Of a DNA stretch of 64,000 nt, positions 21,843-24,272 are shown piece after piece. The DNA is from Couchioplanes caeruleus (GTDB lineage: Bacteria; Actinomycetota; Actinomycetes; Mycobacteriales; Micromonosporaceae): NCBI RefSeq assembly GCF_003751945.1, contig NZ_RJKL01000001.1:3286001-3350000 (forward strand). The letters run 5' to 3'. A program made the position numbers and the translations under genes. Under the pieces are notes generated by a model. That model made no database searches and was not told the DNA's origin. It was given only the letters and a program-made list of their open reading frames with translations. Numbering within the stretch: position 1 is the stretch's first letter; each line of letters opens with the position of its first letter.

Positions 21843-23699
21843 ATGAACCACCCCCGCCGTCGCGGCTGGGCTGTGCTGCGTCACCTCGCCGTACCCGCCC
21901 TCGCACTGGCCGTCGTCGCCACGCTGCCGACGACCCGCTCCGAGGACGCCCCCGCCGCCCCCGAGTATCTGGCCGGCCTCGCACCGATCAGCGTCAACTA
22001 CGGGCTTCCGTACGGACCGACCGTCAAGGGCCAGTTCCTCAGCTACAACGACTTCCACGGCGCCATCGACCCGCCCGCCGGGTCCGGGGCGGTCGTCAAC
22101 GGCGTCCCCGCGGGCGGCGTCGAATACCTGGCCACCTACCTGAAGAAGCTGCGGGCCGAGGCGGCCCAGGACGGCCGGCAGACGCTCACCGTCGGCGCCG
22201 GCGACCTCATCGGCGGCACGCCGCTGGTCAGCGCCGCGTTCCACGACGAGCCGACGATCGAGCTCATGAACGAGGTCGGCCTGCAGGTCTCGTCGGTCGG
22301 CAACCACGAGTTCGACGAGGGCGTCGACGAGCTGATCCGCATCCAGCGCGGCGGCTGCCACCCGGTCGACGGGTGCCAGGACGGCGACGGATACCGCGGG
22401 GCGAAGTTCACCTACCTCGCCGCCAACACCATCAGCAAGAAGACCGGCCTGCCGATCCTGCCCCCGATCGACATCAAGTTCGTTCAGGGACAGCCGGTCG
22501 CCTTCGTCGGCCTGACCCTCGAGGGCACCCCCGGCATCGTCAACCCGGCCGGCATCAAGAACGTGCGGTTCGCCAACGAGATCCAGACTGCCAACAAGTG
22601 GGGCAGCCTGCTAAAGCTGTTCGGCATCAAGGCGCAGGTGCTGCTCCTGCACCAGGGCGGCACGCAGAAGGGCTCCGAGGACAACCCGGTGCCCGGCGTC
22701 TCCGACTGCAACGACTTCGGCGGCCCGGTCGTCGACATCGTCAAGGGCCTCAACCCCGAGTTCAGCCTGGTGGTCTCCGGGCACACGCACAAGTTCTACT
22801 CGTGCGAGCTGCCCAACGCGAAGGGCACCTCGGTGGTGACCAGCGCCGGCAACAACGGACAGGTCGTCACCGACATCGACTACACCATCGACCGGCGCAC
22901 CGGCCGGTTCGCCGAGGTCACGGCGAAGAACGTGGTCGTCGAGAACGGCGTGCCGGACGGCAACGGCGGCTGGAAGAAGGACCCCGCCACCGGCGCCTTC
23001 CTGAAGAACCCCGACACGGTGGACGCCAAGGCCAAGAAGGTCGCCGACAAGTACCGTACGGCGGTCGCGCCGATCGCCAACAAGGTCGTCGGCACCATCA
23101 CGGGCGACATCGTGCGTACGGTGGGCGCCAACGGCGAGTCGCCGCTCGGTGACGTCATCGCGGACGGCCAGCTCGCCTGGACCAAGAACGACGGCGCCCA
23201 GCTCGCGCTCATGAACCCGGGCGGCATCCGCGCCGACTTCGACGCCGAGGGGTCCGCGGGCGGCGAGCCCGACGGCAAGGTGACGTACGGCGAGGCGTTC
23301 ACGGTCCAGCCGTTCAACAACCTCGTGGTGACCCAGACCCTCACCGGCGCGCAGCTCAAGGACGTGCTGGAGCAGCAGTTCGTCGGCTTCGGCGGCCAGA
23401 CCACCCAGCGCATCCTGCAGGTGTCGGCCGGCGTGACCTACACCTGGAACAGCACCGCGGCGCCCGGCTCGAAGGTGTCCGAGCTGAAGCTGAACGGCAC
23501 GCCGATCGATCCGGCGGCGTCGTACCGGGTGACGACGAACGACTTCCTCGCGAACGGCGGCGACGGGTTCACGAACCTGGCCCTCGGCACCAACCGGACC
23601 ACGGCGGCGGGCTTCGACATCGACGCCCTCATCGGCTACCTCAGCGCCGGCGACCCGATCGCGCCGGGCCCGGCCAACCGCATCACCAAGGCCGGCTGA
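21843..23699 (+). CDS. secreted bifunctional metallophosphatase / 5'-nucleotidase (UshA-like)
   Basis: 618 residues. Signal peptide ('HLAVPALALAVVATLP' h-region). N-terminal metallophosphatase domain with 'YNDFHGAID', 'GAGDLIGG', 'VGNHEFDEG' and 'VVSGHTHKFY' for the dinuclear metal site. C-terminal 5'-nucleotidase domain with 'SPLGDVIADGQL', 'NPGGIRADF' and 'YGEAFTVQPFNN'. Extracellular hydrolysis of nucleotides for phosphate and nucleoside salvage. ATG at 21843 with GGGAG 10 nt upstream; the frame is open far upstream in the antisense of pcrA, which is not coding. Divergent from pcrA. Confidence 0.92.
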   Translation: MNHPRRRGWAVLRHLAVPALALAVVATLPTTRSEDAPAAPEYLAGLAPISVNYGLPYGPTVKGQFLSYNDFHGAIDPPAGSGAVVNGVPAGGVEYLATYLKKLRAEAAQDGRQTLTVGAGDLIGGTPLVSAAFHDEPTIELMNEVGLQVSSVGNHEFDEGVDELIRIQRGGCHPVDGCQDGDGYRGAKFTYLAANTISKKTGLPILPPIDIKFVQGQPVAFVGLTLEGTPGIVNPAGIKNVRFANEIQTANKWGSLLKLFGIKAQVLLLHQGGTQKGSEDNPVPGVSDCNDFGGPVVDIVKGLNPEFSLVVSGHTHKFYSCELPNAKGTSVVTSAGNNGQVVTDIDYTIDRRTGRFAEVTAKNVVVENGVPDGNGGWKKDPATGAFLKNPDTVDAKAKKVADKYRTAVAPIANKVVGTITGDIVRTVGANGESPLGDVIADGQLAWTKNDGAQLALMNPGGIRADFDAEGSAGGEPDGKVTYGEAFTVQPFNNLVVTQTLTGAQLKDVLEQQFVGFGGQTTQRILQVSAGVTYTWNSTAAPGSKVSELKLNGTPIDPAASYRVTTNDFLANGGDGFTNLALGTNRTTAAGFDIDALIGYLSAGDPIAPGPANRITKAG

Positions 23700-23742
23700 G
23701 CAAGGCCCGCCAGAGCGTCATCCCACGCTTCGGGCCGTTTCC

Positions 23743-23772
23743 TTGCGGGGCGGCCCGGACCGGGGGCATACT
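23743..23772 (+). promoter_or_regulatory. promoter of the chorismate mutase leader
   Basis: -35 TTGCGG (23743-23748), 18-bp spacer, -10 CATACT (23767-23772). Six nt separate it from the GTG of the leader peptide, so transcription would start on or next to the start codon (leaderless). Confidence 0.6.
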
Positions 23773-23778
23773 CGCTTC

Positions 23779-23844
23779 GTGATTCAGCGCGCTTCGTATT
23801 TTTACTACGGCACCGGAGGTCCGGCGACCGTAGGACGCGTCTGA
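23779..23844 (+). CDS. leader peptide with Tyr-Phe-Tyr-Tyr run (putative attenuator)
   Basis: 21 codons, starting 'MIQRASYFYYGTGG', GTG start, TGA at 23842-23844. Four consecutive aromatic codons (TAT TTT TAC TAC, 23797-23808) sit just before a long stem-loop and the gene for chorismate mutase, the branch-point enzyme for Phe and Tyr. This is the layout of ribosome-mediated attenuation: slow translation at YFYY when aminoacyl-tRNAs are scarce would change the fold of the RNA downstream. Classical TrpL/PheL leaders use the same logic. The antiterminator pairing is not obvious. Confidence 0.65.
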   Translation: MIQRASYFYYGTGGPATVGRV

Positions 23845-23856
23845 ACGACATGCCTA

Positions 23857-23892
23857 CATCAAGCCCCGGGCTTCCCAGCCCGGGGCTTGATG
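23857..23892 (+). terminator. 16-bp stem-loop (putative attenuator) before chorismate mutase
   Basis: Perfect inverted repeat CATCAAGCCCCGGGCT / AGCCCGGGGCTTGATG with a 4-nt loop, 12 nt after the leader stop. The right arm (23877-23884) can alternatively pair with CCCGGGCT at 23896-23903. No U-tract follows. It lies 35 nt before the GAGGAG ribosome site. Confidence 0.7.
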
Positions 23893-23939
23893 CTGCCCGG
23901 GCTGGGCCGACCGCGGCCTCAGCACCCGAGGAGCAGGAC

Positions 23940-24272
23940 ATGACCGCAGACCTGATCGACCAGCCCGAAACCGCGGCCACCGCCGGGCACGATGCCGCCG
24001 GCCAGCCGACCGGCACCAGCGACCAGCTCGCGGCCGACGAGATCCACGCGATCCGCGAGCGCATCGACGCGATCGATCAGGCGCTGATCGACCTCTGGCT
24101 GGAACGATCGCACCTGTCGCAGCAGGTCGGACGCACCCGCATGGCCTCCGGCGGCACCCGCCTGGTGCTGTCGCGCGAACGTGAGATCGTCGAGCGGTTC
24201 CGCGAGGCTCTGGGCCCCGACGGCACCCAGGTGGCGCTCCTCCTGCTCCGCGCCGGCCGCGGGCCCCTCTGA
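23940..24272 (+). CDS. chorismate mutase (AroQ type)
   Basis: 110 residues. All-helical AroQ fold: 'EIHAIRERIDAIDQALIDLWLER' (about 36-58) supplies the arginine and 'R..ID..L' pattern; 'QQVGRTRMASGGTRL' supplies the second basic cluster. Converts chorismate to prephenate for Phe/Tyr synthesis. ATG at 23940 behind GAGGAG; an upstream in-frame ATG at 23850 would run through the stem-loop and is rejected. A leader peptide and stem-loop upstream suggest attenuation by Tyr/Phe supply. The first about 30 residues are an acidic, disordered extension. Confidence 0.88.
   Translation: MTADLIDQPETAATAGHDAAGQPTGTSDQLAADEIHAIRERIDAIDQALIDLWLERSHLSQQVGRTRMASGGTRLVLSREREIVERFREALGPDGTQVALLLLRAGRGPL

Follow-up and report, generated by a model that had tools for sequence, protein, structure and literature searches.

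What decides when Couchioplanes caeruleus makes chorismate mutase, and does the RNA ahead of the gene take part in that decision? The gene lies at 23940-24272 on the forward (+) strand of the 64,000-nucleotide stretch of DNA that we analysed (the window), behind a short ORF with a run of aromatic codons and a long stem-loop. We propose that it is controlled by a ribosome-mediated transcription attenuator, built on a leaderless leader peptide and set by the supply of Tyr- and Phe-tRNA, and we put the probability of this reading at roughly 0.84. Under such control chorismate mutase is very probably made only when Tyr/Phe run short, both here and in many related actinobacteria.

The controlled gene of this model matches PF01817 (chorismate mutase type II) at 6.5e-10, with 39.5 bits against a cut-off of 27, as the preliminary description of this DNA had anticipated, and its start at 23940 was deduced from an RBS-like GAGGAGC at 23928-23934. 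Its upstream neighbour on the same strand is a 5'-nucleotidase gene, and its downstream neighbours are parts of an oligopeptide ABC transporter on the opposite strand. The leader elements named in that description are all present on the + strand. A -35-like TTGCGG (23743-23748) is followed after 18 nt by a -10-like CATACT (23767-23772), which stands 6 nt before the GTG at 23779; this GTG opens a presumably leaderless 21-codon ORF (23779-23844; VIQRASYFYYGTGGPATVGRV) that ends in UGA at 23842-23844 and holds the putative control codons TAT TTT TAC TAC (Tyr Phe Tyr Tyr) at 23797-23808. Behind it lies a terminator-like hairpin, 3:4 (23857-23892), with a perfect 16-bp stem and a TCCC loop and without a U-tract. 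A plain consensus scan of 23650-24000 detected no sigma-70 promoter and no U-tract terminator. The RNA from 23779 to 23940 folds to -90.2 kcal/mol, compared with -63.0 kcal/mol (sd 4.1) for 200 shuffles (z -6.7).

Between the control codons and this stem, two further pairings are available. Hairpin 1:2 (23805-23833), whose 5' arm includes the last Tyr codon, consists of an outer helix, CTACGG 23805-23810 with CCGTAG 23828-23833, and an inner helix, CCGG 23813-23816 with CCGG 23821-23824. If 1:2 is blocked, region 2 (23815-23834; GGAGGTCCGG at 23815-23824 and GTAGG at 23830-23834) can pair with region 3 (23853-23875; CCTAC at 23853-23857 and CCGGGCTTCC at 23866-23875, forming the left arm and loop of the terminator), and the UGA is positioned between regions 2 and 3. 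The preliminary description had seen no obvious antiterminator with the left arm, but 23815-23824 with 23866-23875 and 23830-23834 with 23853-23857 supply one.

We evaluated how widely this arrangement is kept among genomes drawn from the Micromonosporaceae, in which chorismate mutase was present in 148 of 150. Since L103 and L104 duplicate L008 and L016, the 110 upstream regions fetched represent 108 distinct places, and a leader was found in 104 of the regions, or 102 of the distinct places. Three of these 104 loci, including L103 and L104, were omitted from the alignment as their first 110 nt repeat another, leaving 101 distinct family leaders. In the family search, four genomes had no leader at their second gene copy (L083, L089, L098, L099) and one further genome had none at either copy (L086, L090); these last two gave weaker RNA-model matches of 23.8 and 31.0 bits, and L086 has, by eye, an ORF with Tyr, Phe and Tyr. 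Counting L171 as well, the leader is absent at the second chorismate mutase genes of five genomes (L083, L089, L098, L099, L171), as if only one copy per genome were under leader control. A covariance model of the family leaders identified one strong copy in the C. caeruleus genome, at 100 bits; the next independent match in that genome reached 29 bits.

As a fixed criterion we required an ORF that opens with ATG or GTG immediately after a -10-like box, spans 14-32 codons and has its aromatic codons clustered. Such an ORF lies upstream of chorismate mutase in 79 of the best 80 named relatives listed, which comprise Couchioplanes, Actinoplanes, Micromonospora, Salinispora, Dactylosporangium and others, and the 80th (L261) has a leader by eye, with GATACT. 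The same criterion selected none of 800 dinucleotide shuffles of these regions and none of the 80 opposite strands, so that a leader ORF behind a -10-like box is more than chance. The closest named record among the matches listed, Couchioplanes caeruleus subsp. azureus, is 98% identical over 91 residues and has an identical leader peptide.

Of the 101 family leaders, 96 start with GTG and 5 with ATG, and a box of the loose form NANNNT stands 5-7 nt before the start codon in every case; in 88 this box is CATACT. The -35-like TTGCGG is weakly conserved, since TTGN occurs in the corresponding 12-nt stretch in 69/101 leaders of the family, 10/53 of the order set and 0/13 of the class set. An SD-like sequence was found in the 20 nt upstream of the leader start in one leader of 101. 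From this spacing, the transcript is presumed to start at the leader start codon. All 101 leaders contain both Phe and Tyr codons, with 3-6 aromatic codons each, and Trp occurs in only 1/101 chorismate mutase leaders of the family, 2/53 of the order and 2/13 of the class. The chorismate mutase branch leads to Phe and Tyr as its end products; what precedes this biosynthetic gene is thus a short ORF with codons for the end products of its pathway, as expected of an attenuator. The rare Phe codon is favoured in these ORFs, with 153 TTT to 47 TTC in the family leaders, whereas TTT makes up 2 of the 79 Phe codons in six genes of the window; TTT control codons may slow decoding or serve the RNA.

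The three alternative helices were next compared column by column across the family. Hairpin 1:2 is paired in 99.2% of cells in its outer helix and 91.1% in its inner helix over the 101 sequences, and its column pair 14-37 changes from CG to UA in five of them. The terminator helix 3:4 reaches 97.7% paired cells, and changes occur in both of its arms. The antiterminator joins GTAGG(TC) with (GA)CCTAC and AGTCCGG with CCGGGCT, of which GGAGGTCCGG and CCGGGCTTCC are the window versions; pairing holds in 93.5% of its cells and falls to 20.5-46.6% when the partners are slid by 1-3 columns, and its columns 24-87 exchange AU, CG, UA and GC. Compensatory changes therefore occur in all three helices within the Micromonosporaceae, which answers the proposal that the stem be examined for covariation. 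In column shuffles, two of five summary measures for the antiterminator were no better than chance expectation, being reached by 183 and 166 of 500 shuffles. When synonymous codons were resampled from the usage of six window genes, the three helix sets, observed at 0.959, 0.936 and 0.935, exceeded both the means (0.789, 0.724 and 0.713) and the maxima (0.820, 0.756 and 0.770) of 300 resamples. Mutually exclusive 1:2, 2:3 and 3:4 pairings, control codons and a stop between regions 2 and 3 are thus found together within the family. The preliminary description had named as damaging to an aromatic attenuator any orthologues in which the stem is kept and either the short ORF or its aromatic codons are lost. 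The family does not bear out this objection, as stem, ORF, aromatic codons and -10 spacing travel together in it; the interpretation as a whole is largely supported.

A further pairing partner lies behind the stem. CCCGGGCT, at 23896-23903 on the + strand, had been noted as an alternative partner of the right terminator arm, and it is borne out by the relatives: in a count covering 93 of the 101 family leaders, 75 carry a CCCGGG-like motif behind the hairpin, where about 37 would be expected from shuffles. In many leaders the motif stands some 10 nt past the hairpin, and it is able to pair with the right arm of the terminator.

We propose the following mechanism. Transcription would begin at the GTG at 23779, or just beside it, and a ribosome would load on the 5' end of the RNA. 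When Tyr- or Phe-tRNA is scarce, the ribosome would stall at 23797-23808 and cover the 5' arm of hairpin 1:2. Pairing of the freed region 2 (23815-23834) with region 3 (23853-23875) would then keep the terminator hairpin from forming, and chorismate mutase would be transcribed. When charged tRNAs are plentiful, the ribosome would reach the UGA at 23842 and cover region 2, so that the 16-bp hairpin would form and transcription would stop.

Folding calculations bear on this model in part. We simulated stalling with the last aromatic codon in the A site, the 9 nt behind that codon assumed to be covered, and the left terminator arm just made. The stalled-state minimum contained at least one antiterminator helix in 99 of the 101 family leaders and both in 81. 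In the full RNA without a ribosome the terminator formed in 98/101, accompanied by hairpin 1:2 in 50/101. When the left terminator arm had just been made, hairpin 1:2 was in the minimum without a ribosome in 39/101, a frequency so low that the order of synthesis would have to matter. For the window's own sequence, GTAGG:CCTAC is the only antiterminator helix in the stalled-state minimum, and an unoptimised structure that contains both is weaker than this minimum by 7.5 kcal/mol.

Tests over a broader set of leaders gave smaller differences. Folds with at least 5 tail-terminator pairs do not discriminate, being found in 160/170 leaders and in a mean fraction of 0.82 of synonymous controls. Over 167 leaders, from which L208, L209 and L216 were left out as doubtful ORFs (as they were from the codon counts), tail-terminator pairs (9.3 vs 7.4) and stalled-state energy (-24.3 vs -22.6 kcal/mol) were slightly better than in controls. 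In a helix-score test, 2:3 lay in the top tenth of its own resamples in 46% and 1:2 in 53% of these 167 leaders; for the 66 outside the family the values were 29% and 64%. By the same test, hairpin 1:2 stands out in families f2, f8, f12, f13 and f15, and the 2:3 helix is no better than resamples in f2, f3, f8, f12, f13, f16 and f33. Family f15 has an antiterminator of its own, the 9-bp helix GGACTCCGG:CCGGAGTCC, and this is an independent sign of selection for antiterminator pairing. As the broad folding tests barely separate real leaders from controls, the antiterminator rests on the position-specific comparison within the family together with f15.

The explanation that comes closest to attenuation by termination keeps the same sensor and changes the output: stalling would alter translation of chorismate mutase, through RBS exposure or reinitiation, or would alter access of Rho, with no role for intrinsic termination. 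The hairpin in the window has no U-tract, in the computed minimum another hairpin, placed between the terminator stem and the start codon, extends to the RBS region, and the CCCGGG-like motif is enriched behind the stem, all of which speak for such an output. However, a T-run follows the same hairpin in many relatives of other genera (for example L018 and L026), 35 nt separate the end of the 16-bp hairpin from the RBS-like sequence, and actinobacterial attenuators without a typical U-run have been described (PMC8079986). We consider this alternative unlikely as a general account, though in Couchioplanes, whose hairpin has no U-run, the output could be translational or Rho-dependent.

A nascent leader peptide that senses a metabolite and itself stalls the ribosome is considerably less probable. 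It would account for the strong conservation of the tail behind the aromatic codons, which reads G[TS]GSPAAVGRA or a near variant in most family leaders. The tails differ widely outside the family, however, and synonymous resampling indicates that the RNA is conserved beyond coding need. In 13 of the 101 family leaders the tail is read in another frame (GTGCPGRRSR, GTDRPSRRSSR and similar), with further frame changes in L056, L074 and the named relatives L247, L250, L264 and L303, while the outer 1:2 helix has 5 unpaired cells of 606 over all 101 sequences. Since the tails shift frame and this pairing is kept, RNA pairing, not the peptide, constrains the tail, and the reading frame before it appears to be maintained by the aromatic codons. 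On these grounds an arrest peptide was rejected. Still more improbable is that the stem merely terminates the upstream 5'-nucleotidase gene and that the ORF is incidental: the stem does sit between two genes of the same direction, but before chorismate mutase the stem is conserved jointly with the ORF, its frame, its aromatic codons and the -10 spacing, and this explanation was rejected on the absence of any such leader from the 800 shuffles. Least probable of all, with hardly any weight, is a metabolite-binding riboswitch independent of translation, which would suit a strongly structured, conserved 5' RNA but not a conserved frame with Phe and Tyr codons, and which was rejected as no Rfam 15 family matched at threshold anywhere in the window, the best sub-threshold match at the leader locus scoring 29 bits against a cut-off of 112.

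The proposed attenuator is also wider in distribution than the preliminary description could know. A search in other actinobacteria, suggested there, shows that similar leaders recur in other families. Within the order, the covariance model gave matches at E 0.01, anywhere in the genome, in 204 of 249 genomes, 42 of them from the leader's own family, and several of the best matches lie directly upstream of chorismate mutase (for example G183, G266, G277, G287 and G358). An aromatic ORF behind a -10-like box was found in 53 of 60 chorismate mutase upstream regions from ten other families of the order, examples being VLSWQRRFFYGYRSAVPVGI, MRRHAKRFFYGIRTPAPVIA and VLATVSFYYGHRDPVSVTAG, and 52 of these 53 contain both Phe and Tyr. 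No leader was found in the remaining seven regions, of which six belong to f8 and the seventh is a second gene copy. In the class outside the order, the covariance model matched 76 of 197 genomes at E 0.001 and the chorismate mutase protein 67 of 197; of 20 upstream regions, 13 were clear cases, 3 doubtful and 4 not counted. Among the clear cases are 8/8 regions of f33 (for example MLTHPTFLFTYGDRPTGCHGRAA). Because the leaders of the order and class sets were picked by pattern plus eye, the counts for these two sets are less objective than the family count. In f32, four loci (L208-L211) have short ORFs ending in FYGDRARSPLHR, FFYGGRARSPLCR, FYGGRVRSPLGR and HFYQGPGLAPGLPRD, with ill-defined starts, which are perhaps a diverged form of the same leader.

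The family f8, with its six regions lacking a chorismate mutase leader, carries aromatic ORFs elsewhere. Class I DAHP synthase is encoded in 7 of 8 f8 genomes, and in 6 of these 7 an aromatic ORF behind a -10-like box lies upstream, about 310-360 nt before the matched stretch (L319-L324; MRMWRFYFSKAPEAETS, VQRVYFWFSKPARGG..., ...YWRFTEAPGG...). All six ORFs contain Trp, Phe and Tyr. Five of the six genomes have no chorismate mutase leader (L319, L320, L322, L323, L324) and one has it (L321); a seventh (L325) has the chorismate mutase leader and a DAHP synthase without such an ORF, and the eighth has neither element. With Trp, Phe and Tyr at DAHP synthase and Trp nearly absent at chorismate mutase, codon content fits the pathway step. 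We tentatively suggest, at somewhat less than even odds, that a single ancestral leaderless Phe/Tyr attenuator at the chorismate mutase branch point predates the split of the Actinomycetes families; its antiterminator pairs would have been rebuilt lineage by lineage while the aromatic codons were kept, and where it was lost, aromatic leader control would sit at DAHP synthase with Trp added, codon content tracking the enzyme's place in the pathway.

The f8 DAHP synthase ORFs look like wider relatives of aroR. The original study of aroR is reportedly that of Neshat 2014, and Wolf 2017 is said to be an RNA-seq study of Actinoplanes. In the literature searched we found no report of a chorismate mutase attenuator in actinobacteria; these two papers, D'Halluin 2023 and Canestrari 2020 could hold related observations. 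As described in PMC4046766 and PMC11802643, the C. glutamicum aroR leader (Phe-Tyr-Phe) precedes aroF, which encodes a DAHP synthase, and acts by ribosome-mediated attenuation, on which Tyr availability is stated to have no effect (PMC11802643). It resembles the present element as an actinobacterial leader peptide with Phe and Tyr codons before an aromatic pathway gene. However, aroR stands upstream of aroF, at the first common step, whereas the gene behind the leader here is chorismate mutase, so that this leader does not count as an aroR. The E. coli pheL-pheA system is described as a leader peptide with Phe codons that controls CM-PDT by attenuation (PMC11802643), and is alike in placing an enzyme with chorismate mutase activity under leader peptide control. 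It differs in sensing Phe only and in its fused enzyme, whereas the present ORF is presumably leaderless, has codons for Tyr as well as Phe and precedes a chorismate mutase that is a separate enzyme. The pheL leader is an ordinary Shine-Dalgarno one.

Leaderless leader peptides as such are not new in actinobacteria, according to the account in PMC8079986. RNA-seq of S. lividans, as given there, identified eight leader peptides, including ilvL, trpL and leuL, most of them described as leaderless; none of the eight is assigned to Phe or Tyr, and the word 'chorismate' is absent from the main text of that paper (PMC8079986). Cys-rich leaderless ORFs are described from mycobacteria (PMC4633059; Canestrari 2020 as cited in PMC13236596). 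These leaders share with ours an ORF at the 5' end of the transcript and amino-acid-specific control (both presumed here) and, in some cases, hairpins without a U-run. For the Phe or Tyr operons of actinobacteria, Seliverstov 2005 had reported no conserved upstream RNA structure (PMC1262725).

An attenuator of this kind would fill a gap at the point where the routes to Trp and to Phe/Tyr separate. It would also be a compact example of leaderless attenuation, open to direct testing. Actinomycetes make many products derived from aromatic precursors, and the element would provide a handle on Phe/Tyr flux in producer strains.
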